Source: Subtercola lobariae
Lineage (GTDB): Bacteria; Actinomycetota; Actinomycetes; Actinomycetales; Microbacteriaceae
DNA length: 64,000 nucleotides
NCBI RefSeq assembly: GCF_014640255.1
Contig: NZ_BMGP01000005.1
Coordinates: 232,880 to 296,879 of the forward strand
Direction of reading: 5' to 3'
In this document: piece after piece, positions 27,704-46,546 of the stretch
How positions within the stretch are numbered: the first letter of the stretch is position 1
Layout: the number at the start of each line of letters is the position of its first letter
The notes under the pieces: model-generated
Databases searched by the model: none
What the model saw: only the letters and a program-made list of their open reading frames with translations
Told to the model about the DNA's origin: nothing
Position numbers and translations under genes: made by a program

Positions 27704-28234
27704 TTATTTGGATTCCCACCACGGAGTGATGACTGCTCGCGCCAAAGTATGCGACGCGAGATTGAAACCGAGAAAAGCAGGAGTTGCGTCGACGCTGATT
27801 TCGAGCTCATCAACATCTACCGCGTGCACGGCTATGAAGTAGTTGTGTTTGCCGCTTCCAGCGGGAGGGGCAGCGCCCAGGAAGCGCTTCAGCCCGGCAT
27901 CGTTGGCCAGCTGAAGAGCACCTGCTGGCAGATCGTCGCTCAGCCCGCTCCCCACCCCTGTTCCCAGCTCGGTGACAGAACTCGGGATGTTCGCGACCGC
28001 CCAGTGCCAGAACCCGCTCCCTGTTGGAGCCGTCGGATCGTAGACAGTCACCACGAAGCTCTTCGTGGCTGATGGGAAACCCGACCAAGAGAGATTCGGA
28101 GATGTGTCCGATCCGCCGGCACCGAAGATGCCGCTGACGTGGGCGAGAGCGAGTTCTTCGCCATCTGCGACATCGGTGCTGGTGACCTCGAACTCAGGTA
28201 CTGACGCGATCTGGTCATACGGTGATTTTGACAT
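27704..28234 (-). CDS. YbhB/YbcL family Raf kinase inhibitor-like protein (PEBP)
   Basis: A 176-aa phosphatidylethanolamine-binding-protein fold. Typical blocks are [44 protein letters not shown] (about 44-87) and [13 protein letters not shown] (about 127-139), with the DPDAP-like and GxxxYxGPxPP-like ligand-pocket elements reduced to YDPTAP and APPAGSG. Physiological role in bacteria is poorly defined. AAGGAAG precedes the ATG. It is downstream of the alcohol dehydrogenase gene on the same strand. Confidence 0.88.
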
Positions 28235-28280
28235 GTGCTTCCTTGCTCATTGTTTCGGTTTTCGTTTTTTTCGGTTCAGG

Positions 28281-29309
28281 TCAGGGAATGAGAATGCCGC
28301 GCCCGCGAATGCGGCCCAGCTGTAAGTCTGCGATCGCGTCGAGGGCGGCATCGAGGGGATACTCGGCCGTGTGCAAGACCATGCGGCTTTGGCTGGTGAG
28401 GGTCATCAGTTCAACGAGGTCGTTGTAGGTTCCAACCAGGTTTCCCACAATGTTGATTTCGCGAGAAATGATGTCAATTGTCGGCACATTGACGGTGCCG
28501 CCGTATCCGATCACGTAATGCGATCCCCGCGTACGCAACAACTTCGGCGCGAGAAGTTCCGCACCGTTCTCTCCGACGAAGTCGAAGAGAACGTGTGCTC
28601 CCCCCGAAGTGATGTCTAATACCCGCCGTTGCACGAACTCATCGCTTGTCGCATGCACAGTGTGGTGAGCGCCGAGTTCTATCGCTAGTTCGAGGGCCGC
28701 CTCAGACTGATCGACGACTGTGACCTCAGCCGAGGTGATTGCGAGCAGGCTCTGAATGCCGATGTGACCCAGACCACCGGCACCAACAACAACGGTGTGG
28801 GTACCTGGGTATAGTGCAGACGCTGCCTTGCGCACGGCATGGTATGCGGTGAGACCTGCATCTGCCAAAGCGGCAACGTTTCGCGGTTCTAATCCCGGGC
28901 CGAGCTTGACGACTGCTCGAGCGTTCGTGAGAAGCTGCTGCGCCATTCCGCCGTCGACATTCACACCCGGAAATGTTGCGTTCTCGCAGTGGGAGTCTTC
29001 GCCGATTCGGCAAGCCGGGCACAGGCCACAGCTCGTAAGCGGGTGCATGATGACGGCATCGCCCGGAGATACGTTGCTGACCGCAGATCCCACCTCGCGA
29101 ACCCACCCGGCATTTTCGTGCCCGAGCGTGTACGGCAACTGTGGGTTCTGGATTCCAGACCACTGGCCCTCGATGATGTGCAAGTCGGTTCGACATAAGC
29201 CCGCGGCACCGATGTCGACGATCACGTCCCACGGTCTCGTGATCCGTGGTTCGGCAACCTCGTCAACGGTGGGCGGACGCTCGTATTCGTGCAGTCTTAC
29301 GGCCTTCAC
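28281..29309 (-). CDS. Zinc-dependent alcohol dehydrogenase
   Basis: A 342-aa medium-chain dehydrogenase. Cys39, and His64-Glu65 in GHENAG, contribute to the catalytic zinc site. Cys94, Cys97, Cys100 and Cys108 (CGLCPACRIGEDSHC) form the structural zinc lobe. The Rossmann motif GAGGLGHIG (about 175-183) binds NAD(P). GTG 29309 is used because family members start KAVRLHEY. It is transcribed divergently from the small membrane/HTH pair, through a bidirectional promoter resembling two others in the island. Likely it interconverts alcohols and the aldehydes made by the amine oxidase. Confidence 0.9.
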   Translation of the reverse strand: MKAVRLHEYERPPTVDEVAEPRITRPWDVIVDIGAAGLCRTDLHIIEGQWSGIQNPQLPYTLGHENAGWVREVGSAVSNVSPGDAVIMHPLTSCGLCPACRIGEDSHCENATFPGVNVDGGMAQQLLTNARAVVKLGPGLEPRNVAALADAGLTAYHAVRKAASALYPGTHTVVVGAGGLGHIGIQSLLAITSAEVTVVDQSEAALELAIELGAHHTVHATSDEFVQRRVLDITSGGAHVLFDFVGENGAELLAPKLLRTRGSHYVIGYGGTVNVPTIDIISREINIVGNLVGTYNDLVELMTLTSQSRMVLHTAEYPLDAALDAIADLQLGRIRGRGILIP

Positions 29310-29333
29310 ATCGACTCTTTTCCCTGTTCTGTA

Positions 29334-29396
29334 ATTATCTGTTAATAAATAATAGAGTACAAATCTATTGACACGCAAGTTAAACTAATCTAACGT
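29334..29396. promoter_or_regulatory. Divergent promoter pair, site 1 of 3
   Basis: Plus strand: TTGACA (29368-29373), 17 bp, TAACGT (29391-29396). Minus strand: TTGTAC (29362-29357), 17 bp, GATAAT (29339-29334). The two -35 boxes lie five bases apart. The core reads GTCAATAGATTTG on the minus strand with a downstream TATTATTT, related to the sites at 34283-34299 and 41654-41670. The plus start would be near 29403, only about five bases before the ATG at 29408, so that mRNA is almost leaderless. Confidence 0.65.
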
Positions 29397-29407
29397 CAAT
29401 CTACACG

Positions 29408-29605
29408 ATGACCCCTAGTCCTGACCGCCCCAGCCTCGTAAGAATGTTGTTGTTCTCAGCAGCGTTTTGCGTCATCGGTGCTGCGCTATGTGCAAAATCT
29501 CTCGGAGACTCTTCAGCGTTGGTCGACATCTGGGCTGGCGGATTTTCTGTCGTCTTGGGTTCGTCGCTCTGTGTTCAAGCGTTCGCCAGGTTGCTGGAGG
29601 TCTAG
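29408..29605 (+). CDS. Small membrane protein, probably leaderless
   Basis: A 65-aa protein with two hydrophobic segments (about 12-30 and 39-60) and no recognised family. There is no ribosome-binding site before ATG 29408, and the predicted promoter ends about 12 bases upstream, which fits leaderless translation. Its last codons contain the GGAGG used by the following HTH gene. It may be a membrane partner of that regulator. Confidence 0.55.
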   Translation: MTPSPDRPSLVRMLLFSAAFCVIGAALCAKSLGDSSALVDIWAGGFSVVLGSSLCVQAFARLLEV

Positions 29606-29609
29606 CGAG

Positions 29610-29942
29610 TTGGCGAAGCAGACAATTGAGGCTTGGGAAGCGTCGAGTGTCGATGACACCGGTCGGGCATTCACCGCTCTCGGTGTATCAAACGCACGCG
29701 TTGAGATACTCCGTGCTATTTCTCGTCGCGGTGAAAGCCCTACGAGTGCGCTGATGGAGGACGTCGGTCTTAGCCGAAATGGTCTCTCGCGACATCTCGA
29801 GGTTCTGCGTCAATCAGGGTTTTTGTCAGATCGGCATGCGACGCATCCGCGCGGTTCTGGTCCAATCACCTACTGGAGTCTCGACAGTGACGGTATCAGT
29901 GACGCGATCGAGGCGCTGTTGACTTACATTTCGACTCTCTAG
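29610..29942 (+). CDS. Helix-turn-helix (ArsR/MarR-like) transcriptional regulator
   Basis: A 110-aa winged-helix protein. NARVEILRAISRRGESPTSALMEDVGLSRNGLSRHLEVLRQSGFLSDRH (about 27-75) is an ArsR-type HTH, and the wing includes GPITYWSLD. No metal-binding cysteine motif is present. TTG 29610 is chosen because GGAGG (29596-29600) lies nine bases upstream; longer versions would overlap the small membrane gene out of frame. It probably controls the divergent alcohol dehydrogenase promoter. Confidence 0.72.
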   Translation: MAKQTIEAWEASSVDDTGRAFTALGVSNARVEILRAISRRGESPTSALMEDVGLSRNGLSRHLEVLRQSGFLSDRHATHPRGSGPITYWSLDSDGISDAIEALLTYISTL

Positions 29943-29943
29943 T

Positions 29944-29965
29944 CATTCTGCGTTGTTGCAGAATG
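29944..29965. terminator. Hairpin between convergent genes
   Basis: CATTCTGC (29944-29951) and GCAGAATG (29958-29965) form a perfect 8-bp stem with loop GTTGTT, directly after the HTH stop and before the end of the minus-strand membrane gene. It is likely a shared terminator. Confidence 0.6.
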
Positions 29966-29984
29966 CGGCGCTTGCGCAGGCTGT

Positions 29985-30536
29985 TTATGCAGACATGACA
30001 GTCATCGCCAGAATCATGCAGAGCGTGCAGGTCGCGTGAGGGATGGTGTGGGCTCTTTTTTTGTGAATGGCAGGCACGATCAGTACCGCTGCACACAGAG
30101 CCCAGTCAACGAGCACTAGTGTGCCGATTATGTTGCTGGCGAGCATTTCGTGCGGCATGTGAAGTGAACTAGCTGCGGGGCTGGAGGCTGTGGTGGCGGG
30201 AGTGTCCATTCGATGAGCTGGCATGAGAAGCAAGGCAAGAGCCATGAACCACACATCGACGAGCACAAGAATAGTGACGGATTTCTGCCGTGCATTTGAG
30301 GCCCGATTAGAGCGTATTCGAGCGACCACCAAGGTGATCATACTGACGCTGATCACTGCTAACAGCGCTCCGCAGCCTACGCTTGCGGGAAAACTCGGCA
30401 GTGTGAGTACAGCGAGCATCACCGCGCCAGTTATCAGGCTTACCCCTGCCTGAATTCGTGAACCGTTGCGTCCGCCGACGGCTGCAGCCATGCCCGCGAT
30501 TGTGAGAATGGCTGCAGCGATGCTGGTCAGTGGCAC
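29985..30536 (-). CDS. Hypothetical six-helix membrane protein
   Basis: A 183-aa protein with about six transmembrane segments. His and Met residues cluster around 115-130 (HRMDTPATTASS, then HMPHEMLAS) and at the C-terminus (HTIPHATCTLCMILAMTVMSA). This pattern recalls DUF5134-like proteins and suggests metal, perhaps copper, binding. It overlaps the end of the copper amine oxidase gene by 10 bases and lies downstream of it on the same strand. A role in copper supply to the oxidase is possible but unproven. Confidence 0.6.
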   Translation of the reverse strand: MPLTSIAAAILTIAGMAAAVGGRNGSRIQAGVSLITGAVMLAVLTLPSFPASVGCGALLAVISVSMITLVVARIRSNRASNARQKSVTILVLVDVWFMALALLLMPAHRMDTPATTASSPAASSLHMPHEMLASNIIGTLVLVDWALCAAVLIVPAIHKKRAHTIPHATCTLCMILAMTVMSA

Positions 30537-32500
30537 GTATGCCCGTCTGTTCCACCGTCAGCATGGTGTTGGTGCGAAACATCTGCCGGAACGTCGAGGG
30601 TCGGATTTCGGTCAAAGAAACCATGCGGCTTCAGGGTGAATTTTGCGTAGTCCACAGGCATGACTGGCCAGTCCTCGGGTCGGGGAAAGTGGGTGGGTCC
30701 GAAGGTGTGCCACAAGACGATGTCTTCGTTCTCGAGCGAGCGGCCTGCCTTCTGATATTCCGGTATTCCGCCGCCACCGAGGTGTTGATTGGGAAAATCT
30801 CCTGCTGAGTAACGTTCCTTCGGGTCGTATTGCGTGATCCACAGCTGTTTGGTCGTGAATTGGGCACGCGTCGTGACCGTTGCTGATTCGTCGGCCAGCA
30901 GCACCGGGTTCTGTTCCGGATAGAGAACGTAAGAGACCGGGTCACCGAATCGGTTCAGAGAGTTGGGGTTCGTGATGTGCCACGTTCGAGCGAGGCTGGC
31001 ATTGGCGAGCCGACCTCCTTCAGACTCGTTTGTGATCGGCGTGGCCTTGTTCGTGAACGCGTTGCCGTGTTCATTGCCGGGCCCAGCCGGAACTCGTTTA
31101 ACTTCAACTTCTTGAACGGTATTGTTCGTCCCGTCGACGGTCATGTCTAGACGTGCCGAGAAGAGGTGCTGATGGTAAGGGGCCCCAAGGCCCGGCGCGA
31201 CCTCGTTGGCGTATGGATAGTCTTTTCCCCGATATGACGAGGTGAACAGTATGCCGGTAAGTTTTGCTTCGCACTCGATAGTGCCGTCTAGATAGAGGTA
31301 CCAGAAAAAACCGTAATCATAGTTGCCCACGGTGGTGAAGAATGAGATCACGAGCCGGCGTTGCCGGCGGGTCTCGTTCGATCCGGTCACGAAGTCAGAA
31401 TGTTTCCAGAGAATGCCGTAATCCTCTTCGTGCATGCAGATGGCATTCTTGATCGTCTTCGGGTGGCCCTGCTCATCCATGATCACGCCATCGAAGTACG
31501 TGATCTCACCGACGCAGTCGCAGCCGAGTTCGAGGCTGTTGGTGTATCGGGCGAACATGTACTCGCCGGTGTCGAAGTAGTTCTGCCAAAACCGCACCGG
31601 GCTCGGATCAGCGTACGGCACCACCATTTCGGCGATCGATGCCCGATAGATGATCGGCCGATCTTCACCCTTGTCGTGGAAAGAGAGCTGGCGCAATATC
31701 AGTCCCTCTCGCGCATCGAACCCGACCCGGAATTTCCAGTTCTGCCAGGTGACGACCTCGCCGTCGACCTGATACGACGGCCCATCTGGCTGACTGATCT
31801 CGAGTGGCTTCAGGCTCTTACGCTCTGGCCCACGGAACGCAGGGTCGTCATAGTTGCCTGATTCTTTCGGCACCGGCAAATCCAGAAAGTCGACGAGCTT
31901 GATGACACGCCCTTCGGTCATATCTACGTAGGCGCAGAGCCCATCGACAGGATGGGCCCAGCACGCGTCTGTCGGATGGTCCTGCATGAAGAACAAAGAC
32001 CGGGCGACGCGATGGTTCAACTCATCGTCGAAACCATAGTGTCCAGCAGAGAGCGGAATGGAGACAACCTGAGCGGGGTCGATACCGCGCCGAGCGATCG
32101 CCTCCTGAAACCCGGGGTCGGCTTGAATAATAGGCCCGATCAACTCGAATTCTTCGTCGAGAATCGCAACCTGACCATCCTCTGGTGCGATTGATCGAAC
32201 CGAGACCACGCTGGCTGCGACAATGTCCACCACGATGTCTTGCGACTCGCCGGTAGCCAGATCGATGAGGATCGCTCTGGCCCACCGTCTTACGGCATCG
32301 CCGGGGCTGAAAGCCAGAACGTCTTTCTTGTTCGGCTCCTCTAACCCCACGTGCACAAATCGAGTCGACTCGAGCAGAAATTCTCCATCGTGAAGGATTT
32401 TGCGGACCGCGTCGAGTTCGCTGACACTGAGATTGTCCAGTGGATGAGGCTGCACGTCGCCCATGCCCGCAATGCTTCTCTCATGCTGAGTGATCGACAT
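30527..32500 (-). CDS. Copper-containing primary amine oxidase
   Basis: A 657-aa amine oxidase that oxidises R-CH2-NH2 to aldehyde, NH3 and H2O2. Tyr394 in the T-V-G-N-Y-D motif is the precursor of the topaquinone cofactor, and Asp310 (YFDTGEYMF) is the catalytic base. Copper ligands are His443 and His445 (HQHLFSARLDM) and His604 (THFPRPEDWP). No signal peptide is seen, so it is probably cytoplasmic. An unusual His-rich tail (HQHHADGGTDGHTCH) may bind extra copper. An APC permease lies just upstream, and aldehyde dehydrogenases are nearby to consume the product. Confidence 0.95.
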   Translation of the reverse strand: MSITQHERSIAGMGDVQPHPLDNLSVSELDAVRKILHDGEFLLESTRFVHVGLEEPNKKDVLAFSPGDAVRRWARAILIDLATGESQDIVVDIVAASVVSVRSIAPEDGQVAILDEEFELIGPIIQADPGFQEAIARRGIDPAQVVSIPLSAGHYGFDDELNHRVARSLFFMQDHPTDACWAHPVDGLCAYVDMTEGRVIKLVDFLDLPVPKESGNYDDPAFRGPERKSLKPLEISQPDGPSYQVDGEVVTWQNWKFRVGFDAREGLILRQLSFHDKGEDRPIIYRASIAEMVVPYADPSPVRFWQNYFDTGEYMFARYTNSLELGCDCVGEITYFDGVIMDEQGHPKTIKNAICMHEEDYGILWKHSDFVTGSNETRRQRRLVISFFTTVGNYDYGFFWYLYLDGTIECEAKLTGILFTSSYRGKDYPYANEVAPGLGAPYHQHLFSARLDMTVDGTNNTVQEVEVKRVPAGPGNEHGNAFTNKATPITNESEGGRLANASLARTWHITNPNSLNRFGDPVSYVLYPEQNPVLLADESATVTTRAQFTTKQLWITQYDPKERYSAGDFPNQHLGGGGIPEYQKAGRSLENEDIVLWHTFGPTHFPRPEDWPVMPVDYAKFTLKPHGFFDRNPTLDVPADVSHQHHADGGTDGHTCH

Positions 32501-32544
32501 AAAAAGTTCCTTCTCTTCTTGAGTGCGTTGATCGGCCTGAATCC

Positions 32545-34035
32545 CTACGACTCTTGACGCCCGATTTTGCTGTAGACATCTGGTCGGTGGTTGCGGAGCC
32601 AGAGCGCGAGAACGATGCCCGCGACGGTGATGACGATCAGGCCTATCGCGCAGATGGGTCCGATGTTAGGAATTCCGAGGACGAGATCCAAGTTGGTCAA
32701 CACGAGCACGAGAACCGCAGCGAATCCGATGCCGGCAAGAGCAGGCGCGATCAATGACTTCCATGTCGACTCCAGGCCTGGTCGGCGCCGGAAGAACGCG
32801 ATGATCGCCGCTATCGTGCCCAGGAACAACAGCAGGATGCAGATCGTGCCGAACCCGCCGAACGCACCGTAGATCAGCACGACATCTTTGCTGAAGCCGA
32901 TCAAAATGAGGTAGATGGCTAGGCAGATTCCGATGCTGGCCAAGACAGCGATCCAGGGAGACCCAAGTTTACGATGCACTCGGCCTAGACCAGAGGGCAG
33001 AATTCGATCCCGTCCCATCGAGTACAGATATCTGACGGACGCGCCTTGCACAGAGTTCGCCGCAGCAAGTTGACTTGTCACGAGCAGAACCGATACGAGG
33101 GTTGCCACAAAGCCGCCGAGATAGACCTGAATACTAGAGATCACTGAATCGACGGGGGCATTGCGAGCATCATCAACGACCTGCGAGGGTCCGACGGCCA
33201 CGATATAAGCGAACGCGGCGAGAGCGAAGAACAGGGCGGTGAAAATGATCGCACCGTAGGCCGCCCTCGGAACCGTCTTTTCGGGCTTCTTCACCTCTTC
33301 CCTGAACACGGCCATCGCTTCGATACCGATCATTGTGTTGAGCGCAAACAGCACTGCGATACCGGGGTTGGCAGACAGAAATTCAGAGGGCAGAAAGGAA
33401 GAGGGGGAGTACCCTTCTGGGCCGCCCTTGATCATCACCGAAGCTTCATAAACGGCGACAATGATGATCTCTAGGCTGACGAAGACAGCAACAGCCTTAA
33501 TAGAGAGGTCTACGCGCAGCAGATTGAGCACCGTAACGACGGCAAAGCCGATCAGGCCCCAAACCTGCCAGGGCAGGGAGGAGCCGAAGACGTTGGTCAC
33601 GAGCGTCTCGGTGATCAAACCGAGGAACACATAGCCACTCACGGCGTAAAAGATGTAAGCGATGGTTGCCAAGAACGAACCCGCAACGGCAGCAGGTTTA
33701 CCCAAACCTTGGGCGATCAGGGTGTAAAAGGCGCCCGGAGTCTTCATATGCCGGCTAATGGCCAAGATCCCGACCTCGAACAGCAGCAGCAACGCACCCG
33801 CTGCAAGAAAAGCGACAGGCGCGCCTATTCCGTTTCCGAAGGCAATGGCCGGTTGGAGGTAGCCCGCCAGCACAGCAAGCGGGGCGTTGAATGCAATGAA
33901 GATGAATGCCAAAGTAACGGCATTGAGTTTTCGTGGTAGAGCAGTTTGTGGTTGAGTGGCCGCCGATGGATCATTGGCCGCCTCAGAAGTCGTTGAGGTG
34001 CGAACCTCAGGTGCTTTGTGATCGAGCTCACTCAT
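32545..34035 (-). CDS. APC family amino acid/amine permease
   Basis: A 496-aa transporter with about 12 transmembrane helices. The N-terminal tail is hydrophilic, and helix 1 shows the APC pattern LAFIFIAFNAPLAVLAGYLQPAIAFGNGIG. GIEAMAVFREEVKKPEKTVPRA (about 233-254) is the conserved loop of the superfamily. It shares a transcript with the amine oxidase (44 bases apart), so uptake of an amine or amino acid substrate is likely. It is divergent from the first aldehyde dehydrogenase. Confidence 0.92.
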   Translation of the reverse strand: MSELDHKAPEVRTSTTSEAANDPSAATQPQTALPRKLNAVTLAFIFIAFNAPLAVLAGYLQPAIAFGNGIGAPVAFLAAGALLLLFEVGILAISRHMKTPGAFYTLIAQGLGKPAAVAGSFLATIAYIFYAVSGYVFLGLITETLVTNVFGSSLPWQVWGLIGFAVVTVLNLLRVDLSIKAVAVFVSLEIIIVAVYEASVMIKGGPEGYSPSSFLPSEFLSANPGIAVLFALNTMIGIEAMAVFREEVKKPEKTVPRAAYGAIIFTALFFALAAFAYIVAVGPSQVVDDARNAPVDSVISSIQVYLGGFVATLVSVLLVTSQLAAANSVQGASVRYLYSMGRDRILPSGLGRVHRKLGSPWIAVLASIGICLAIYLILIGFSKDVVLIYGAFGGFGTICILLLFLGTIAAIIAFFRRRPGLESTWKSLIAPALAGIGFAAVLVLVLTNLDLVLGIPNIGPICAIGLIVITVAGIVLALWLRNHRPDVYSKIGRQES

Positions 34036-34259
34036 TTGTAGACACTCCAGGTATTGGGCGGAAACCGTGTTGGATGTGAATTCGAATGCCTGCGCCCGTG
34101 GTCTTTAGCCGGCGAAGGCCGAATCGTCGTACTTGATTGGTGAATTATTCGCGGGTAAATCTGGTGATTCGCTACAGACGCGCAAGTCAACGTCGTTTGG
34201 TGACTGATCGGCTGGGACGCGCGGGGTGTTACGCCAGCCAGCGCATTTCTGTTTCCCCG

Positions 34260-34322
34260 ACACTAGAGGTGGATTCTGCAATAGTCAATATATTTGACAC
34301 TTATTATTTGAAGATGTAACTT
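34260..34322. promoter_or_regulatory. Divergent promoter pair, site 2 of 3
   Basis: Plus strand: TTGACA (34294-34299), 17 bp, TAACTT (34317-34322). Minus strand: TTGACT (34288-34283), 17 bp, TAGTGT (34265-34260). The -35 boxes are five bases apart, and the core is GTCAATATATTTG with downstream TATTATTT. This AT-rich block lies in the 341-base gap between the permease and aldehyde dehydrogenase genes. The rest of the gap holds nothing I can name. Confidence 0.68.
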
Positions 34323-34376
34323 TAAGAATATCGATTTCCTCAATCGACGATGACGCGTTAATCCAGGGAGTATCTG

Positions 34377-35870
34377 ATGAGCACTATCACCGAACAGACG
34401 AGTGTCTTGAATGACGCGCGCGTTGAGTTGAGCGGACGTCAGCTCGGTCATGTCATAGACGGGCAGATCGACCCGTCGGGTATCGGAGATGCGATCGTGG
34501 TGATTGATCCTGCGTCCGGAGATGTGATTGCAACCATCCCCCAGGGAACGAAAGCGCATGTTGATCGTGCTGTTGAGGCTGCGAGAACGGCACAGCCGGC
34601 CTGGCGGTCCAAATCGTATTCAGAACGTGCAACCGTCTTGAATGCCGTCGCGGGTCTGGTTGAGGCGAACGTTGAAAGACTCGCCGCGCTGGAGTCACTC
34701 AACACGGGCAAGCCATTCGATGCGGCTCGCGACGAGATTCTTGGTACTGCTGAAGCATTTCGATTCCTGGCGGGTGCGGCACGAGCGTTGCAGGCTCCCG
34801 CGCCAGATGAATATGTGGGTGGCCAACTTTCCATGATTCGACGAGAACCGGTTGGCGTTGTCGGTGCAATAACTCCATGGAACTATCCGTTGTTAACAGC
34901 ATCGTGGAAGATCGCTCCAGCTCTCGCTATGGGAAACACTGTCGTTCTCAAACCCTCTGAGCTCACCCCGCTGACCACCCTTCTGTTCATGGATCTGATA
35001 AAAGACGTGCTCCCTGCGGGGGTCCTCAATATTGTTCTCGGTACCGGCCGAGAAGTGGGTGCCGCTCTGAGCGAGCACACCGCTGTCGATCTGATTTCGT
35101 TGACAGGCAGCGTTGGTAGCGGGCAAGCGGTTATCGCGGGCTCAGCTCATACGTTGAAGCCGACGCACTTAGAGCTGGGGGGAAAGGCGCCCGTTCTCGT
35201 CTTCGACGACGCCGTCCTCGATGATGTCGCTGCGGGAGTACGGTTCGCCGGTTTCTGGAATTCCGGTCAAGAGTGCGGCTCGGCGACGCGCATCATCTGT
35301 GCTGAGTCTGTTCGAGACGAACTGACTCAGCGTCTCGTCGACTCTGCCACGACCCTCCGTGTGGGAGCGCCGGATGAGTTGAACTCCGAAATGGGCCCTC
35401 TCATCAGTGAGCGGCAGCGTAACGCGGTGGCAGCGATGGTGAATCGGGCGCGTGATGCAGGTGCGACTGTGGTTTTGGGCGGTGAGGTGCCTGACGGGGC
35501 CGGCTTTTTCTATCCGCCCACAATTATCACCGACGTGGTTCACGGGAGTGAGATTGCGACGCAAGAGATCTTTGGGCCTGTGGTCACGATCGAGACCTTT
35601 TCTGATGAAGCTGAGGCGCTAGCGTTGGCGAACAGCGTCGTGTACGGTCTCGCAGCCTCCGTCTGGACCGAGAATCTTGGTCGCGCTCTGCGGGTCTCGA
35701 GCCTTCTTGACTTCGGTACGGTGTGGGTCAACGGACACCTGCACGGGGTGAGTGAGATGCCGTGGGGTGGGTTCGGTGCGTCTGGACACGGGCGTGAGAT
35801 GTCAATTTTTGCGCTCGAAGATTTCTCTCGAACAAAGCATGTGATGATCGCGACAGGGGCGACTTCCTAA
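34377..35870 (+). CDS. Aldehyde dehydrogenase (aminobutyraldehyde/betaine-aldehyde type)
   Basis: A 497-aa NAD(P)-dependent aldehyde dehydrogenase. Asn169 (PWNYP), Glu266 (LELGGK) and nucleophile Cys300 (NSGQECGSATRI) make up the active site. The closest visible pattern is to gamma-aminobutyraldehyde and betaine-aldehyde dehydrogenases. It is divergent from the permease and amine oxidase operon, so it probably oxidises the aldehyde made by that oxidase. The second ALDH in this island (38000) is about the same length but diverges clearly in sequence. Confidence 0.93.
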   Translation: MSTITEQTSVLNDARVELSGRQLGHVIDGQIDPSGIGDAIVVIDPASGDVIATIPQGTKAHVDRAVEAARTAQPAWRSKSYSERATVLNAVAGLVEANVERLAALESLNTGKPFDAARDEILGTAEAFRFLAGAARALQAPAPDEYVGGQLSMIRREPVGVVGAITPWNYPLLTASWKIAPALAMGNTVVLKPSELTPLTTLLFMDLIKDVLPAGVLNIVLGTGREVGAALSEHTAVDLISLTGSVGSGQAVIAGSAHTLKPTHLELGGKAPVLVFDDAVLDDVAAGVRFAGFWNSGQECGSATRIICAESVRDELTQRLVDSATTLRVGAPDELNSEMGPLISERQRNAVAAMVNRARDAGATVVLGGEVPDGAGFFYPPTIITDVVHGSEIATQEIFGPVVTIETFSDEAEALALANSVVYGLAASVWTENLGRALRVSSLLDFGTVWVNGHLHGVSEMPWGGFGASGHGREMSIFALEDFSRTKHVMIATGATS

Positions 35871-35965
35871 CACCTGAACGGTTTCCGCCGCAGTATTTCT
35901 GCACCGCTATCAAGCAACCACTAGTTCTCGCATCAGCGGGAAACGTCAAACGAAGGAGAACATAA

Positions 35966-36304
35966 ATGTCAGGCAGCGTAGTACCTCACTTCAACGCACA
36001 CAGCGCGGAGTTCAAGAAATTTTCCGCGGGCGAGATGGCTCTTCTGTATGCATCAGATGATGGAACCCGGCTTGCGGGAAGCTTCAAAGAATCCGGCCTC
36101 CATCAGATGACGATGCCGTTTGACGAGTTCATCTATATCGTCGCTGGAAGCTCGAAAATCACTGTAGAAGGCGAAACCTTCGAGATGGGCGTGGGTGACG
36201 CCTGCTACTTGAAGAAAGGCATGGAAGTCACTTTCGAACACTCCTCAGACTTTCACGATGTAACCGTGTTGCTCTCAGACACTCCCATCGAACCAATAGT
36301 TTGA
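35966..36304 (+). CDS. Cupin domain protein (EutQ/Cupin_3-like)
   Basis: A 112-aa single cupin barrel: MPFDEFIYIVAGSSKITVEGETFEMGVGDACYLKKGMEVTFEH (about 50-92). The usual HxH metal ligands of motif 1 are not seen (PFDEFIYIV), as in EutQ-like and (S)-ureidoglycine-type cupins. AAGGAGAA precedes the ATG by 5 bases. It follows the aldehyde dehydrogenase by 95 bases on the same strand and may stabilise or isomerise a reactive intermediate. Confidence 0.82.
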   Translation: MSGSVVPHFNAHSAEFKKFSAGEMALLYASDDGTRLAGSFKESGLHQMTMPFDEFIYIVAGSSKITVEGETFEMGVGDACYLKKGMEVTFEHSSDFHDVTVLLSDTPIEPIV

Positions 36305-36386
36305 GTCATGATGACGCCTATGGTTCGATACGCCTCGAATCATTCGCGCTACCATTTGTACCGAGTCACTGATTGGACGGGGTAAC

Positions 36387-37868
36387 ATGCCTCCATTTCC
36401 ATCTGCGAGCAGAGATCTGGTCTTCTCTAATCTGCCATCGTCGGACATCGTTGCCGCGGTGGTGCAGAGAATTAGATCTGCCATCGGACTCGGGTTGGTG
36501 GCCGGTGGTGACAAGCTTCCGAAAGAGGCGGAGCTGGCGAGACAATTTGGCATTTCAGCCTTTGCGCTTCGCGAGGCACTCACGACGTTGCGCGAAGAAG
36601 GCGCGATCGAGACTCGGGCTGGCAAGTTCGGAGGCAGCTTCGTTACTGAATCGCTCGTCACAGAATCGCTCGCTCACGACGAACTATGCCGCTTGACTTT
36701 CTCGGAGCTACGAGACCTCGGGGATTGGCGACGCATGCTTTCTGCGCAGGCCGCAGATCTTGCTGCGCGGCGAGCATCGCCTTCGAACCTCGAGAGGCTT
36801 TCCGGTTACGCACATCAAGTCTCCGAGGCCCAGACGGCTGAACAAGCACGTCGTGCGCACGGCCGTTTCTACTTGGAGCTGGCCGCGGCCGGCCAATCCA
36901 TGAGGTTGAGTCAGGCCGGATTTGCCATGCACGATCAGCTCGATTGGCTGTTCGGTCTCGTGCTTGACGACGAACCCAAACGGGCGCTGAGGTCTGCGGA
37001 GCTGAGCGAGATCGTGCACTGCGTCGGCACCCAGAATTCGGACTACGCCCGCGTTCTGGCATCAACTCACATTCTCACGATGGTGGATGAGCTGGCGCGT
37101 TTACGATTGGAGCTGATTGCGAGCCGAGATCGGCAAAGCGGTGCCAGAGTCAAGGCCGTGAGCGGTGAGAGCTTCGCTGCGGAAGTAGAACTGTTCGTCG
37201 GCTCGCTGGCATCCGAGATTGGGGCCTTGGCAGTAAAAACCGCGCCCCTATTAGGTGCGACGCTGTCGGCCCGTGAAATTCGCACAGGGGTTTCGTTGCT
37301 TGTTCTTCCTGCGTTCGATCGGATTCCTATTTTCAGCCTCGGCCTCGGCGTCATGGCAGAGGTCGGAGTAGTGCCCGAGCATCCCTACTGGATCAACTGG
37401 TGGGAGACGACGCCATCGGGTCCAGTCGAAAATACTCATCACATTCTCGATCCCGAAGACGAAAACTTTTATGACTACGAAGCCAGGGAGTTCATAGCCC
37501 AGCCTCGACAGCGCTTAGCAGACTGGGCGACCGGCCCGTATGTGGACTACGGGGGAAACAATGACTACATAGTCACGTTTTCGTCCCCCATTCTGTTCGA
37601 AGACCGGTTTCTCGGGGTCGTGACGGTCGACCTCTTGGTCGCCGACTTAGAGCGTCACTTCTCATCGTTTCTTGCCGGACTCGATAGCTCCTGCGTCGTC
37701 GTGAACGCTGAAAATCGAGTGGTGATGTCGAATTCTGTGTCGTTTGACGTTGGTGATGTGGTCAGGCCGGCATCGAGCGATGACGTGTTCTCGATCGGCG
37801 TTTTCGGCTGGTCGCTGGTTCTGAAAAATACCCGAGTGAGCACTGAAACAGCCAACATTCTCGCATAA
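36387..37868 (+). CDS. GntR/FCD transcriptional regulator fused to a Cache sensor domain
   Basis: A 493-aa protein. Residues about 18-90 form a FadR-type GntR winged helix (RIRSAIGLGLVAGGDKLPKEAELARQFGISAFALREALTTLREEGAIETR). About 105-245 are a helical FCD-like ligand domain. About 265-480 look like a Cache sensor: RQRLADWATGPYVDYGG (375-390), then TFSSPILFEDRFLGVVTVDLLVADLE (397-422). Normal FadR-type regulators are about 230 aa. Cache domains are usually extracytoplasmic, but no membrane helix is present, so this one would sense inside the cell. The context points to amines, amino acids or sugar acids as ligand. Confidence 0.82.
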   Translation: MPPFPSASRDLVFSNLPSSDIVAAVVQRIRSAIGLGLVAGGDKLPKEAELARQFGISAFALREALTTLREEGAIETRAGKFGGSFVTESLVTESLAHDELCRLTFSELRDLGDWRRMLSAQAADLAARRASPSNLERLSGYAHQVSEAQTAEQARRAHGRFYLELAAAGQSMRLSQAGFAMHDQLDWLFGLVLDDEPKRALRSAELSEIVHCVGTQNSDYARVLASTHILTMVDELARLRLELIASRDRQSGARVKAVSGESFAAEVELFVGSLASEIGALAVKTAPLLGATLSAREIRTGVSLLVLPAFDRIPIFSLGLGVMAEVGVVPEHPYWINWWETTPSGPVENTHHILDPEDENFYDYEAREFIAQPRQRLADWATGPYVDYGGNNDYIVTFSSPILFEDRFLGVVTVDLLVADLERHFSSFLAGLDSSCVVVNAENRVVMSNSVSFDVGDVVRPASSDDVFSIGVFGWSLVLKNTRVSTETANILA

Positions 37869-37999
37869 CTACTGAGCGCCATCGGGATCACCGATGTGCT
37901 CCCGATCTGGGTCGCGAATTCGGGTCTACCGGCAGTATCCGCTGCCTACTTATTCGCGCCCGAATTCACAGGCAATCTTTCAAAAAATGAGGAAAACAG

Positions 38000-39478
38000 A
38001 TGTCAAATGAGCAACTGGCGAACGACCAGCGAACAGTGGTGCGGGATTTCTCCAAAAGGGTAATCGGGAATTTCATAGATAATCGCTGGGCTCCCTCGAC
38101 ATCAGCCGACCAACTCGTTGTGGTTGATCCTTCAACCGGACTCGAGATTGGGCGCGTTCCTGCTTCTTCGGCGGTCGATGTAGATGTCGCTGTCTCGGCC
38201 GCCGCGGCCGCCCAACCAGCATGGGCTCGTCTGACACCCGCTGCTCGGGCGAACTATTTGCTCGAGCTGGCGACGCTCGTCGAGCAGCACATTGATGAAC
38301 TGGTGGTGATCGAAGCAATCGACGCGGGAAAGCCGATCACGGCCGCAAAGGAAGAAATGCACGGCGTGGTCGACGCAATGCGCTTTTTTGCTGGCTCCGC
38401 CCGCTCGCTGCCCGCCCCCGCCGGCGGTGACTATCTCGACGGAGTGACGTCGGTCATGCGGAGAGAACCGGTCGGCGTCGTTGCCGGCATCACCCCTTGG
38501 AACTATCCGCTCCTACAAGCGGTTGCGAAGTTGTTTCCCGCCCTCGCCACTGGCAACACGGTGGTGATTAAGCCTGCCGAGACGACGCCCTACTCCACCG
38601 CCTGGCTGGCAGAGTTCAGCGTTCGCGTGCTCCCTCCCGGCGTGTTCAATGTCGTCTTCGGAACCGGCCACAGTGTCGGCGAGGCGCTCACTCGGCACCC
38701 AGACGTCGATCTCGTGTCTTTCACCGGGTCTATCGAGGCCGGTCGTAAGGTCGGCATAGCCGCCGCTGATGGTGTCAAGAAAGCAATCATGGAGTTGGGT
38801 GGCAATGCTCCCGTCATTGTCTTCGATGACGCAGCTCTTGACTCCGCTGTCGATGCAATCGTGATTGCGGGTTTGTACAACACTGGGCAAGAGTGCATGG
38901 CAGCGAGTCGACTGATCGTGCATTCTTCGATTGTCGAAAAATTTACCGAGGCCCTGATCGTGCGCTGCACCGTCGAGCGAATCGGCGATGTTCTTGATCA
39001 GAGCACAACTCTTGGCCCAATGACATCAGCGAGTCAGCGCACTCGAGTTCTCGAGAAAATCGAACGACGCAGCGCCTTGTCACAGGTGGTGACTGGCGGC
39101 ACGGTGCCTGCGGGCGAAGGTTTCTATTTCCCGCCGACGATCATCACCGGAGTCTCACAAGACGACGAGCTCGTGCAGGAGGAAATATTCGGTCCGGTCT
39201 TTACAATTCAAACTTTCGATTCAGAGAACGAGGCGCTGCTGCTGGCGAATGGAACTCGCTACGGGCTCGCGGCTTCGGTCTTTACCACCGACGTCGGTCG
39301 CTCGATTCGCGTACAGAATGCGCTCGATTTCGGAACCGTGTGGGTGAACACGCATCTGGTATTCGCTGCGGATCTTCCCGTGAGCGGGTTTGGTTCCTCT
39401 GGCATTGGTACCGAGAACGCCGAGCTGGGTGTTATCGAGTTCACCCGTCTGAAGCACGTCATGATCGACCAGCACTAA
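38000..39478 (+). CDS. Aldehyde dehydrogenase (second copy in the island)
   Basis: A 492-aa NAD(P)-dependent aldehyde dehydrogenase. Asn168 (PWNYP), Glu265 (MELGGN) and Cys299 (NTGQECMAASRL) are the catalytic set. Its lineage is clearly different from the copy at 34377. Position 22 bases before the hydroxyproline-epimerase-like gene makes 2-oxoglutarate semialdehyde a reasonable substrate, because both the hydroxyproline and pentonate routes end in that aldehyde. Aminoaldehydes are an alternative. Confidence 0.92.
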   Translation: MSNEQLANDQRTVVRDFSKRVIGNFIDNRWAPSTSADQLVVVDPSTGLEIGRVPASSAVDVDVAVSAAAAAQPAWARLTPAARANYLLELATLVEQHIDELVVIEAIDAGKPITAAKEEMHGVVDAMRFFAGSARSLPAPAGGDYLDGVTSVMRREPVGVVAGITPWNYPLLQAVAKLFPALATGNTVVIKPAETTPYSTAWLAEFSVRVLPPGVFNVVFGTGHSVGEALTRHPDVDLVSFTGSIEAGRKVGIAAADGVKKAIMELGGNAPVIVFDDAALDSAVDAIVIAGLYNTGQECMAASRLIVHSSIVEKFTEALIVRCTVERIGDVLDQSTTLGPMTSASQRTRVLEKIERRSALSQVVTGGTVPAGEGFYFPPTIITGVSQDDELVQEEIFGPVFTIQTFDSENEALLLANGTRYGLAASVFTTDVGRSIRVQNALDFGTVWVNTHLVFAADLPVSGFGSSGIGTENAELGVIEFTRLKHVMIDQH

Positions 39479-39544
39479 CGAATCAAACCCGACACAGGGG
39501 TGTGCAACCGCTCCCCCGATGAAGTAAGACGAGAGCGAATATTC

Positions 39545-40576
39545 ATGCGATTGAACAATTTAGTACATGTCGTTGGCTGCCATGCCGAAGGGGAGGTGGG
39601 CAACGTCGTAGTCGGCGGAATTGGCGACATTCCGGGGCAGACAATGTTTGACAAGCGAAACTATCTCGAACAACATCGAGACGATCTCAGGCGCCGCCTC
39701 TTGCACGAACCGCGCGGCAACGTCATTCGCAGCACGAACGTCATTCTGCCGTCTAATGACCCGCGCGCACAAATGGGGTACGTCATTCTCGAATCGACCG
39801 AGTATCCGGCGATGTCTGGCAGTAATACAATTTGCGTCGCGACGGTTTTGCTTGAGACAGGCATGATTCCCATGCAAGAGCCCGTGACGAACCTAACTCT
39901 CGAATCGCCGGCTGGTCTGATTGAACTCGAGTGCCAGTGCAGCGATGGAAAAGTCACGAGTGTGCGGTTCCTGAATCAGCCGGCGTTCGTCTACGAGCTC
40001 GATGCGGTGATCGATGTACCCGACTTGGGAAAGGTGACGGTCGACGTCGCGTGGGGCGGCATGGCGTACGTGCTCGTTGACGCTCAGAGCGTCGGCATCG
40101 AGATCGTTCCTGCGCGAGCTCGCGATATCGCGATACTCGGCCAACGTATCAAGCTGGCCGCCGCCGAGCAGCTTCAGGCGGTGCATCCGGTGCATCCTGA
40201 CTTCCCGGGAATCACTCAAACCGAATTCACTAATCCGATCCGACGAGAGGGCGGAGTGTTGACGGCTCGAAACGCTGTCGCTGTGTCTCCGGGTCGGTTG
40301 GATCGTAGCCCGTGCGGCACCGGCACCTCTGCTCGTCTAGCCGTGATGCACGCCAAAGGTGAGATTCAAAAAGGCGAACGGTTCGTGCATGAGTCGATCA
40401 TCGGAACGAAGTTCGACAGCACCATTGAGTCACTGACGACCGTAGGTGGAATCGCTGCCGTTGTGCCGAGCGTGGCCGGGCAGGCCTGGATCACCGACAT
40501 TTCTCAGGTTGGCGTAGACCCGACTGACCCATTTCAAACCGGCTATACCCTAGCCGACACCTGGATGCAGCTGTGA
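39545..40576 (+). CDS. Proline racemase family protein (hydroxyproline epimerase-like)
   Basis: A 343-aa diaminopimelate-epimerase-fold enzyme of the proline racemase family. The first catalytic cysteine (usually MCGH) is replaced by Ser91 in MSGSNTI. The second is kept as Cys257 in RSPCGTGTSARL. Family studies associate a Ser/Cys pair mainly with hydroxyproline epimerases, and Thr/Cys with trans-3-hydroxyproline dehydratase. The N-terminal HTGGEP motif reads HAEGEV. ATG 39545 is chosen over GTG-type upstream starts because the fold begins at once. It is followed by a large hairpin. Confidence 0.85.
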   Translation: MRLNNLVHVVGCHAEGEVGNVVVGGIGDIPGQTMFDKRNYLEQHRDDLRRRLLHEPRGNVIRSTNVILPSNDPRAQMGYVILESTEYPAMSGSNTICVATVLLETGMIPMQEPVTNLTLESPAGLIELECQCSDGKVTSVRFLNQPAFVYELDAVIDVPDLGKVTVDVAWGGMAYVLVDAQSVGIEIVPARARDIAILGQRIKLAAAEQLQAVHPVHPDFPGITQTEFTNPIRREGGVLTARNAVAVSPGRLDRSPCGTGTSARLAVMHAKGEIQKGERFVHESIIGTKFDSTIESLTTVGGIAAVVPSVAGQAWITDISQVGVDPTDPFQTGYTLADTWMQL

Positions 40577-40604
40577 CAGTCATGACGTAGCCGCCGTGAA
40601 TGCT

Positions 40605-40661
40605 GGATTCCTGCCGCCATTATTTCAACATCGAGGTTTAGCCTCGTGGCGGCAGGAATCC
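40605..40661. terminator. Long perfect hairpin between convergent genes
   Basis: GGATTCCTGCCGCCA (40605-40619) is perfectly complementary to 40647-40661. The 27-base loop contains a second small hairpin, CGAGG/CCTCG (40632-40646). It fills the space between the epimerase-like gene and the convergent DapA-family gene. It is probably a bidirectional terminator, though the stem is unusually long and has no T-tract. Confidence 0.7.
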
Positions 40662-40667
40662 CGACGC

Positions 40668-41597
40668 CTATTCGACGGACAGCAATCCAACTGAGCTGAG
40701 CAACTCGTGAAGTTGAGCGGTCGAACTGGGATCGGACAACGGCAAGAGCGGGCTGCGCACAACCCCACCCGGTTGGCCGAGCATCTGCATCGCCGCTTTG
40801 AGCTGCGCCACGGGCGCGGCAAAACGACCACTGAAGTCGGGATTCCAAAGACCGGTCATCAAGGTGGAGTACTTAATTGCAACCTCGCGCGCGCGGTCGA
40901 TGTCGCCCGCATCGATGGCCTCGAAAAATGGCACCCCGAACGGCGCGCCCAGCCCGCCACCGTCGATGAATCCGTCGCTGCCGTAATTTTGGATCACATC
41001 GATTCCTGCAGGTGATATCAAGTTCGCGAAGACGCGCACTATCGGGCTCAACTCGACAACGGCTTGACGAAGTGCGACTAGGTTGCCCGTGCTGTTCTTG
41101 ATCGATACCACGTGGTCGAGCTCAGCCAGCCTGAGCATCGTAGATACTTCGATCTCGGTGCCGATTCCGAGCGGCCAGTTATAGATCGAGAGAGGAAGAT
41201 CTATACGCTGATCGATCTCTGAGAAGAATGCGAAGATCTCTTGTTGCGTCGGATGAACGTATGCAGGCGCAGTCGCAAGAACCCCATCCGCGCCGATGTG
41301 CTGGGCATGCTGAGCGAGTGCCACGACGTAGTCGGGTGTGAAACCGGAGCAGCCAACAATGACAGGAATTCTTCCACCGGAAATGGTGACGAAGAGCTCA
41401 GCATTTGTTTTGCGCTCCTGGAGCGTTTGCGCCCACCATTCACCGCTCGAACCATTGACGACGAGACCTTTAACCCCTTGAGCTATGTACATCTCAATCA
41501 TCGCTCGATGCAGGTCGGGGTCGATGAGACCGTCGTCTCCGAATGGCGTGGGTGCTGCAACCCAATAGCCGTGCCAGTCAACAGAATGACGATCCAT
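40668..41597 (-). CDS. DapA/DHDPS family lyase or deaminase (first copy)
   Basis: A 309-aa class I aldolase-fold enzyme. Lys167 (VVSIKNST) is the Schiff-base lysine and Tyr139 (LSIYNWP) the conserved tyrosine. The usual GTTGE pyruvate-binding motif reads GSSGE (49-53). ATG 41597 follows GGGGAGA. In hydroxyproline catabolism a DapA homologue deaminates pyrroline-4-hydroxy-2-carboxylate to 2-oxoglutarate semialdehyde. The neighbouring epimerase-like gene makes that role plausible, but a KDG-type aldolase cannot be excluded. Confidence 0.88.
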   Translation of the reverse strand: MDRHSVDWHGYWVAAPTPFGDDGLIDPDLHRAMIEMYIAQGVKGLVVNGSSGEWWAQTLQERKTNAELFVTISGGRIPVIVGCSGFTPDYVVALAQHAQHIGADGVLATAPAYVHPTQQEIFAFFSEIDQRIDLPLSIYNWPLGIGTEIEVSTMLRLAELDHVVSIKNSTGNLVALRQAVVELSPIVRVFANLISPAGIDVIQNYGSDGFIDGGGLGAPFGVPFFEAIDAGDIDRAREVAIKYSTLMTGLWNPDFSGRFAAPVAQLKAAMQMLGQPGGVVRSPLLPLSDPSSTAQLHELLSSVGLLSVE

Positions 41598-41630
41598 AGT
41601 TCTCCCCAGCTTCAAAGTGGCGTTTTTCTT

Positions 41631-41693
41631 AAAGTACACTTCTAAATATTAACTTGCAAATAATTTGACGCACTGTTGCTAGAGGAATATCGT
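41631..41693. promoter_or_regulatory. Divergent promoter pair, site 3 of 3
   Basis: Plus strand: TTGACG (41665-41670), 17 bp, TATCGT (41688-41693). Minus strand: TTGCAA (41659-41654), 17 bp, TACTTT (41636-41631). The -35 boxes are five bases apart. The core on the minus strand, GTCAAATTATTTG with TTAATATTT further on, aligns with site 2 at about 25 of 34 positions. CAAATTATTTG is itself palindromic. Confidence 0.68.
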
Positions 41694-41726
41694 CGGAGCA
41701 CGGGCAAGTCGCAATGGAGTGAAAAT

Positions 41727-43346
41727 ATGAGTCTCAAAGATGAAGCCGCCGTTGACATCGTCATCGTCGGAGCTGGTCCATCGGGCGCTGTCGTCGCGCA
41801 TACCCTCGCCTCGCGGGGATTCACGGTCATGTGCCTGGAACAAGGCGATTGGGTGAGCCCTGCCGACTATCCCGGGAACAAACCGGAATTCGAGCTTCTG
41901 TTGCAGCAAAAGTGGAGCTGGAACAACAACACAAGAAATCGCCCAGAAGATTACCCGATGAATCTGGATCACACAGACGTGGTGCCAATCATGTTCAGCG
42001 GCGTCGGAGGGTCGAGCCTGATGTATGGGGCGCACTGGCTGCGACTTCTTCCCTCGGATTTCCGGATGAAGACCCTTGATGGAATTTGCGACGACTGGCC
42101 GATCAGTTACGACGACCTCGAGCCGTATTACACGCGCATCGACAAAGTCATAGGGGTAGCGGGCCTGGGCGGAGACCCCGCATATCCCCCACAAGATTTC
42201 GATATGCCACCGCATCCTCTGGGCAAGGGTGGTCTGATCGCCGCCGAGGCCCTCAACAAACTCGGTTGGCACTGGTGGCCCGGAACCCAGGCGATTCCGA
42301 CTTTCAAGCACAAGAATCTCGAACAGTGCGTGCGATGGGGTGTCTGCGAGACCGGTTGTCCGGCCGGCGCGAAAGCCTCGTTCGACCTCGCATATTGGCC
42401 GCAGGCCATTGAAGCCGGAACCAAGCTGGTGACAGGAGCGCGTGTTCGCGAAATCACGGTAAACGAATCGGGTTTAGCCGACGCGGTCATCTGGATCGAC
42501 CGCGAAGGCCGTGAGCATAGGCAACAGACCAGCGCCGTTGTCATGGCGGCGAACGGGATCGGCACAGCACGGCTCCTCCTTCTCTCGACATCAAACAAGC
42601 ATCCCAATGGCCTTGCCAACTCGTCGGGGTTGGTGGGAAAGAACCTCATGTTGCATCCCAACAACGCTGTCGTGGGCTTGTACGACGAGGAAATCGAATC
42701 GTGGAAAGGACCAGCAGGGCAATTGATCTACTCTCTCGAGTTTGCAGAGACGGATGTAAGACGGGGGTTCTACGGCGGTTCCAAGGCCAATCTAATGCCG
42801 CTTCCGGGGGTTCTGCACATCTTGGAAATGTTCAAAGATCTGCCGTTCGAACAGCGGTGGGGAGATGCGGTACACAACCTCGACAAATACGCAGGTCGCG
42901 CGCTCAACTGGGCGGGTAATATCGGTGACCTTCCCGAGGAGACAAACCGCATCACTCTCGACCGCGACCTGACGGACAGTGACGGCATTCCGGCTCCCCG
43001 TATTGACTACAGAATCAGCGAGAACACGCAGAAGAACCTGGACTTCACTCTCGAGCGTCTGGAAGAAATGCATAAGGCGGCCGGGGCGGCCCATATTGCT
43101 TCAACGAAACTGTGGCGGGAGGCGCCCGGACACATCCTTGGCACGGCCCGCATGGGTAACGACCCGGCGACCTCCGTCGTCGATCGTTTCGGCCGAAGTC
43201 ACGACGTGTCGAACCTGTTCATCGTAGACGGAAGCATTATGGTCACCAGCGGAGCCATGAACCCCACCGCGACGATCACGGCGCTGGCGCTCAGGGCGGC
43301 TGAGCACATCGCTGAAACAGCGAAGGGGCAGCGGGTGCCCTCATGA
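41727..43346 (+). CDS. GMC oxidoreductase (gluconate 2-dehydrogenase large-subunit type)
   Basis: A 539-aa FAD enzyme. The dinucleotide motif GAGPSG is at 15-20. A cysteine block CVRWGVCETGCPAGAKAS (about 206-223) and the C-terminal HILGTARMG and NPTATITALALR motifs mark the membrane sugar/sugar-acid dehydrogenase branch. It would oxidise a sugar or polyol, passing electrons to a cytochrome partner. ATG 41727 has TGGAG about ten bases upstream. Its stop overlaps the small-subunit gene by four bases. No Tat signal is evident, which is unusual for the periplasmic enzymes. Confidence 0.9.
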   Translation: MSLKDEAAVDIVIVGAGPSGAVVAHTLASRGFTVMCLEQGDWVSPADYPGNKPEFELLLQQKWSWNNNTRNRPEDYPMNLDHTDVVPIMFSGVGGSSLMYGAHWLRLLPSDFRMKTLDGICDDWPISYDDLEPYYTRIDKVIGVAGLGGDPAYPPQDFDMPPHPLGKGGLIAAEALNKLGWHWWPGTQAIPTFKHKNLEQCVRWGVCETGCPAGAKASFDLAYWPQAIEAGTKLVTGARVREITVNESGLADAVIWIDREGREHRQQTSAVVMAANGIGTARLLLLSTSNKHPNGLANSSGLVGKNLMLHPNNAVVGLYDEEIESWKGPAGQLIYSLEFAETDVRRGFYGGSKANLMPLPGVLHILEMFKDLPFEQRWGDAVHNLDKYAGRALNWAGNIGDLPEETNRITLDRDLTDSDGIPAPRIDYRISENTQKNLDFTLERLEEMHKAAGAAHIASTKLWREAPGHILGTARMGNDPATSVVDRFGRSHDVSNLFIVDGSIMVTSGAMNPTATITALALRAAEHIAETAKGQRVPS

Positions 43347-46504: not shown

Positions 46505-46546
46505 ACCGGTACCTTCAAACCTGCAATCGCCCCAGGGCGTGGAGTA

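Follow-up and report, generated by a model that had tools for sequence, protein, structure and literature searches.

Three divergent intergenic regions in one catabolic gene cluster of Subtercola lobariae carry back-to-back promoter-like hexamers, and the question raised by this locus is whether they are served by one regulator. They lie in a stretch of 64,000 nucleotides from contig NZ_BMGP01000005.1 (hereafter the window; G+C content 61%, source assembly 4.09 Mb), in which the cluster spans 28.2–47.8 kb and includes 17 genes over about 19 kb. The three divergent gaps within the cluster separate the alcohol dehydrogenase (ADH) gene from a small open reading frame (ORF), the amino acid permease gene from that of the first aldehyde dehydrogenase (ALDH1), and the DapA1 gene from that of the GMC oxidoreductase. 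The best explanation, which we hold to be moderately probable, is that a regulator dedicated to the cluster acts through one operator present in three copies, at the sites in these gaps (S1, S2 and S3). This regulator would most probably be the GntR-FCD-Cache protein of 36387–37868 (hereafter GntR-Cache). About 17 catabolic genes together with their own unusual regulator would thus form one regulon predicted from sequence alone, the whole cluster probably being switched as one unit.

Three related sites in divergent gaps

The sites and the promoter-like hexamer pairs around them are as follows.

29346–29373, minus strand: S1 element, 28-mer TGTCAATAGATTTGTACTCTATTATTTA, reading towards ADH; gap 29310–29407
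34283–34310, plus strand: S2 element, 28-mer AGTCAATATATTTGACACTTATTATTTG, reading towards ALDH1; permease/ALDH1 gap 34036–34376
41643–41670, minus strand: S3 element, 28-mer CGTCAAATTATTTGCAAGTTAATATTTA, reading towards DapA1; DapA1/GMC gap 41598–41726
29334–29396, both strands: S1 promoter-like pair, minus TTGTAC-17-GATAAT, plus TTGACA-17-TAACGT
34260–34322, both strands: S2 promoter-like pair, minus TTGACT-17-TAGTGT, plus TTGACA-17-TAACTT
41631–41693, both strands: S3 promoter-like pair, minus TTGCAA-17-TACTTT, plus TTGACG-17-TATCGT

As proposed in the initial annotation, −35/−10-like hexamer pairs with 17-bp spacers on both strands stand back to back in all three gaps, and the opposed −35 hexamers are five bases apart at all three sites. 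The related cores which it described were also recovered, since the pattern GTCAAN3ATTTGN5TATTATTT fits each site with no more than three mismatches. For S2/S3 it gave about 25 of 34 positions in agreement, and the best three-way 34-mer gives 24/34 for this pair, 21/34 for S1/S2 and 20/34 for S1/S3. These paired −35 boxes double as the half-sites of a dyad, GTCAA-N5-TTGAC, which is perfect at S2 and imperfect at S1 and S3. The element is directional and reads towards ADH, ALDH1 and DapA1, while the −10 hexamers of each site are the opposite ends of a 63-bp segment; overlapping −10 boxes as in bidirectional promoters with a shared −10 were not seen at these sites.

Comparison with chance

The shared element exceeds chance. 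With up to three mismatches allowed in its 18 specified bases, the core pattern has exactly three matches in the 4.09-Mb genome, namely S1, S2 and S3, and the reversed pattern, used as a control under the same conditions, has none. The same search served as a refutation test, since copies at unrelated loci at the frequency expected for AT-rich DNA would have spoken against a shared regulator; all three genome-wide matches are the three sites. The shared regulator suggested in the initial annotation is thus supported by a core unique to the three sites in the genome, and the element gives good support to common regulation.

The core pattern was derived from the sites themselves, and core-independent tests were added for that reason. 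The best three-way ungapped 28-mer scored 59, compared with 45.5 ± 1.65 and a maximum of 52 in 60 dinucleotide shuffles. Matrices built from two sites scored the third at 24.3, 26.1 and 24.3, and in the window the left-out site ranked right behind both training sites, the background maximum being 17.5–18.0 in 200 kb of other sequence from the same genome. The full 28-mer matrix gave 37.4–38.2 for the sites, and the best match elsewhere in the 200-kb sample scored 18.9 and precedes a helicase-like gene (named by eye). Five of the six promoter-like pairs have TANNNT at exactly 17 bp, and four or more were reached in none of 20,000 shuffles.

When no more than one mismatch is allowed, the two-promoter architecture ANNNTA-N20-CAA-N5-TTG-N20-TANNNT has four matches genome-wide, including S1–S3 (S1 with one mismatch); the control search found no place. 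The fourth match, also with one mismatch (L049, G000:C2:298482–298544), lies between divergent TetR-like and SnoaL-like ORFs, named by eye, and lacks the core. The strict dyad was rejected as a genome-wide operator, S2 being the sole place of perfect GTCAA-N5-TTGAC in the genome and the reversed control giving two. The looser wording of the core in the initial annotation, GTCAAN{2,3}ATTTG, has nine matches in the genome, three at the sites and six scattered. One of the six lies in the window at 16755, 12.6 kb to the left of S1, as an extra GTCAATCATTTG match without the TATTATTT block.

When gaps are allowed, S2 and S3 are similar over about 60 bp, beyond the core, with a score of 50 which was reached by none of 3000 shuffles, and the S1/S2 similarity was reached by 17/3000. 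The S2/S3 likeness runs past the −10 box (34283–34340 and 41615–41670) as GAAG-TGTA-CTTTAAGAA, suggesting that a promoter segment itself may have been copied between non-homologous genes.

The element beside relatives of the proposed regulator

Relatives of GntR-Cache with 39–47% identity and an ALDH within one gene are present at loci L037, L050 and L081, where this ALDH shares 56–58% identity with ALDH1 and 43–47% with ALDH2. At L050 (genome G434) a gap of 105 bp separates the GntR-Cache relative (44% identity) from the ALDH1 relative (56%), and GTCAAN{2,3}ATTTG occurs only once in the 7.0 Mb of this genome, at C111:54873–54884, inside this very gap. Of 60,000 shuffles of the gap, 69 contained the motif; with eight gaps examined, this frequency should be multiplied by about 8. 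The motif sits in the spacer of the regulator gene's promoter-like TTGACC-17-TAAGTT, and the −35-like hexamers there are 33 bp apart; since it is kept without the five-base geometry, the conserved unit looks like an operator rather than a promoter geometry.

In the L081 gap upstream of the ALDH1 relative the 28-mer matrix scored 14.1 on the plus strand (1/300 shuffles) and the core minus one base scored 11.7 on the minus strand (3/300), both being readings of one clean dyad, ATTTGTACACAAAT. Upstream of the ALDH1 relative, positions 12690–12720 of L081 form a near-perfect dyad, AATATTTGTACACAAATAATT, with an exact fit to the FadR-type TTGT-N2-ACAA. A 28-mer matrix match at L037 (2/300 shuffles) falls on a T-rich run and was not counted. 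Neither were the AT-rich look-alike words beside the distant GntR-Cache relatives L048, L051, L052 and L053 (31–33% identity), for which the gaps examined contain no exact core.

The GntR-FCD-Cache protein

In the protein encoded in the window, the N-terminal GntR winged helix (PF00392, E 2e-12) and the FCD helical effector domain (PF07729, E 3e-8, residues 113–229) are both above cut-off. For the C-terminal sensor a PDC-type match is above cut-off and a dCache_1 match below it. Each of the four aligned proteins (from the window, L037, L050 and L081) has matches to the GntR, FCD and Cache-type families with E values of at most 0.01. The best sequence match of the profile in the PDB is PdhR, and the matches comprise PdhR-like repressors as well as, weakly, sensor domains of chemoreceptors (E 3e-4 to 5e-4), whose Cache (PDC) domains are usually extracellular.

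In Escherichia coli FadR, Arg-35 and Arg-45 read G and Thr-46 makes a further specific contact, as described for the FadR subfamily in PMC4494728. In the FadR register, the four aligned proteins have A/P/S/A in place of Arg-35 (HTH, i.e. helix-turn-helix, position 28) and A/T/L/P in place of Arg-45 (position 38), the Thr-46 position is F in all of them and Arg-49 is kept. The loss of both G-reading arginines fits an operator departing from the palindrome TKGT-N2/3-ACMA of the subfamily, members of which with other operator motifs are noted in the same paper (PMC4494728). This GntR clade with a Cache domain thus probably reads DNA otherwise than by the usual Arg-G contact. The palindrome itself is exact at L081 (TTGTACACAA) and has one mismatch at L050 and at L037. 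The L081 dyad TTGT-AC-ACAA fits the FadR consensus; the group may not be uniform in this respect, or a different reading may apply at L081.

Weighing of the alternative explanations

Several results weigh against one GntR-Cache operator acting from three promoter pairs. The exact core motif is found in only one of the eight gaps adjoining GntR-Cache or ALDH1 relatives (gap limits set by eye). At L050 its spacing is N2, the N3 core is no better there than in shuffles (133/300), and the best 28-mer match in the gap (11.2, 3/300 shuffles) lies elsewhere than the motif. L081 has no exact core, and its score for the full N3 core, 9.4, was reached by 30/300 shuffles. In the Mycolicibacterium locus L037, with 47% identity of the regulator and with GMC, ALDH1 and permease genes nearby, the core is absent, and two core forms are matched as well by 90 and 181 of 300 shuffles. 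The FadR-subfamily palindrome occurs at none of S1–S3 even with one mismatch. A single-site divergon operator would be expected near the centre of its gap; the distance from it is about 90 bp for S2, compared with 1 and 5.5 bp for S1 and S3. The S1/S3 gapped similarity taken alone is unremarkable (283/3000 shuffles), and the hexamers had been chosen in the initial annotation after inspection of the sequence. A generic sigma-70 scan of 27000–46900 recovers only one of the six promoters (S3, plus strand) among seven sites in total, compared with 8.1 ± 2.7 in shuffles, i.e. with no excess, so that each promoter alone appears weak. The leader of the permease gene would be about 218 nt long, and the small ORF (29408) would have next to no leader. 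The leaders of the other four units, counted by eye, fit start codons with a purine-rich ribosome-binding site (ADH GTG 29309, ALDH1 34377, DapA1 ATG 41597, GMC ATG 41727), and it is plausible that the six hexamer pairs act as promoters.

The small ArsR-like HTH protein (29610–29942) or a regulator encoded elsewhere might own the operator instead, with GntR-Cache not binding. This HTH protein is a winged-helix protein whose own gene lies downstream of S1, and both the misfit of S1–S3 to the FadR-subfamily consensus and the seven gaps without an exact match would be compatible with it. Operators of the ArsR/SmtB type take the form of a 12-2-12 inverted repeat close to the gene of the regulator itself. 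Relatives of the HTH protein, however, were not detected at L037, L050 or L081 (tblastn, E 1e-8, loci of 13–21 kb), yet the motif is present at L050 and, weakly, at L081, and we regard this explanation as unlikely. The comparative evidence moderately favours GntR-Cache over the HTH protein; the link is moderate rather than strong because L037 lacks the core, L081 is weak and one of eight gaps has an exact match. It is quite unlikely, in our estimate, that no dedicated regulator exists and that the sites are AT-rich divergent promoters of shared ancestry, with S2/S3 being a copied segment and polymerases competing at the abutting −35 boxes. Such an origin would account for the S2/S3 likeness beyond the core and for TANNNT in five of the six −10 hexamers, but merely good promoters should recur in 4.09 Mb, which the element does not, the L050 motif lies within a promoter spacer away from the five-base geometry, and the generic scan hardly recognizes the promoters. 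Finally, GntR-Cache or another regulator might act at the sites as an activator recruiting polymerase in both directions, as the majority of the −10 boxes bear little resemblance to TATAAT (TAGTGT, TAACGT, TATCGT) and weak promoters often need activation. A protein on the element would nevertheless lie over the −35 hexamers and a spacer, where binding usually blocks polymerase, and FCD-type GntR proteins are mostly repressors, which makes activation very improbable. A precedent for FCD-type repression is HypR (PMC6608401).

With GntR-Cache as the repressor, a dimer would bind each element, covering both −35 boxes and silencing both units of the pair. Each operator copy would overlap the two divergent −35 boxes and run into one spacer (towards ADH, ALDH1 or DapA1), and at S2 the repressed units would probably include that of the GntR-Cache gene itself. 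The repressor would be released by a ligand sensed by the FCD domain and/or the Cache domain, probably one of the amines, amino acids or aldehydes handled by the cluster, and its release would turn on about 17 genes at once. The proposals on repression, ligand and release draw on what is known of the family (PMC4494728, PMC6608401), and the binding, the operon structure and the transcription starts are likewise predicted. The element is a concrete candidate operator for testing, and the Cache domain makes the inducer guessable among the amine or amino acid compounds of the cluster. A broader proposal, which we put forward tentatively and hold to be possible but rather unlikely, is that a small and scattered actinobacterial GntR-FCD-Cache group comprises soluble one-component sensors which detect an amine or amino acid through a Cache domain of chemoreceptor type and act on a non-canonical AT-rich operator without G-reading arginines. 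The operator would have been copied here into three divergent gaps with its half-sites doubling as −35 boxes, so that repressor and either polymerase would be mutually exclusive over six units.

Relation to known systems

Divergons of the FadR subfamily, as described in PMC4494728, have in common with the present locus a regulator with a GntR winged helix and an FCD domain, an AT-rich operator and one site for both divergent operons, a single site usually regulating both; extra boxes beside the main operator have been described as well. Unlike those systems, the locus studied here shows a C-terminal Cache-type domain, sites S1–S3 without TKGT-N2/3-ACMA, replacement of both G-reading arginines and the presence of three divergons within a single cluster. 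HypR of Streptomyces coelicolor is also an actinobacterial GntR/FadR-type regulator with some sites upstream of divergent genes, and it represses hydroxyproline genes including those of hydroxyproline epimerase and deaminase (PMC6608401). It differs in its consensus, CTNTGC(A/C)ATGTCAC, and in having sites at several separate loci, and the excerpts of that source do not mention a Cache domain.

The GntR-dCache architecture itself is not new, since GntR proteins joining this output to a Cache-type domain have been recorded among dCache_1AM proteins (PMC10104139), and amine sensing, the function of dCache_1AM, would suit the present cluster with its amine oxidase and permease genes. Bidirectional promoters that share a symmetric −10 (PMC12825309) resemble the sites in divergent transcription from a short segment and in possible competition between polymerases, but here the −10 boxes are separate, the −35 boxes abut and the symmetric part is the −35/operator region. 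In the one literature collection searched, no work joining GntR, FCD domain and Cache domain was found, nor was there, among the matches listed, any title on an actinobacterial amine oxidase/GntR/ALDH cluster of such a kind. As far as this search reaches, the apparently new features are the threefold use of an operator in one cluster, a −35/−35 overlap of fixed geometry and an FCD-GntR protein with a Cache domain on a predicted non-canonical operator.

Gene content of the cluster

The genes from left to right code for ADH, a 65-aa ORF, the ArsR-like HTH protein, a 183-aa protein, copper amine oxidase, amino acid permease and ALDH1, followed by a cupin-like ORF (labelled by eye), GntR-FCD-Cache, the second aldehyde dehydrogenase (ALDH2), a proline-racemase-family enzyme, DapA1 and GMC oxidoreductase, and then by a 173-aa protein, an IlvD/EDD dehydratase, DapA2 and an MFS transporter ending at 47764. 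The 183-aa and 173-aa proteins have no Pfam match. Gene order and strand suggest six transcription units, and the GntR-Cache gene is presumably co-transcribed with ALDH1 in the rightward unit of S2 (gaps of 95 and 82 bp). The principal genes are listed below.

28281–29309, minus strand: zinc-type ADH, on the S1 side to which the element points; GTG start 29309 re-set by eye
29408–29605, plus strand: small ORF of 65 aa on the other side of S1, membrane-like by eye, no Pfam match
29610–29942, plus strand: ArsR-like winged-helix protein (HTH_20), the rival regulator; TTG start 29610 set by eye
30527–32500, minus strand: copper (primary) amine oxidase
32545–34035, minus strand: amino acid permease, first gene to the left of S2
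34377–35870, plus strand: ALDH1, first gene to the right of S2
36387–37868, plus strand: GntR-FCD-Cache regulator, third gene of the presumed rightward unit of S2
38000–39478, plus strand: ALDH2, starting 131 bp after the regulator gene
39500–40576, plus strand: proline-racemase-family protein; top NCBIfam match trans-3-hydroxy-L-proline dehydratase, under cut-off
40668–41597, minus strand: DapA1 (DapA family), on the S3 side to which the element points; ATG start 41597 re-set by eye
41727–43346, plus strand: GMC oxidoreductase, first gene to the right of S3; ATG start 41727 re-set by eye

Distribution of the regulator and of the cluster genes

The GntR-FCD-Cache regulator is rare and very patchy in the genomes searched. 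Neither GntR-Cache (E 1e-30) nor ALDH1 (E 1e-120) was found in the 11 other genomes of the same genus. GntR-Cache was present in one of 299 genomes of the family (E 1e-60) and one of 396 of the order (E 1e-65), in both cases the genome of the window itself; these counts are lower bounds, with the best five and three first-look candidates, respectively, scored per genome. The class gave 5/394 genomes including the own one (E 1e-50), the family of the Mycolicibacterium genome 2/401 (E 1e-70) and the genus of G434 1/12. L037 is the named locus with GntR-Cache, and the second locus of the same search covers the HTH only.

DapA1 was found at E 1e-80 in two of the 299 family genomes including the own one. 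Conservation of the cluster around the DapA1 relative in G235 was rejected, as the 14-kb stretch contains no GMC relative and a scan of 3.9 kb for the core found none. The DapA of this locus (L047) is 49% identical to DapA1 of the window, and it stands together with ORFs of the proline-racemase family, an FAD oxidoreductase and a GntR-like protein in an arrangement resembling a hydroxyproline degradation operon. The plasmids searched gave no GntR-Cache at E 1e-20 and no DapA1 at E 1e-60. GMC relatives do occur on plasmids, in 24 records, all with less than 60% identity and mostly rhizobial among the genera listed.

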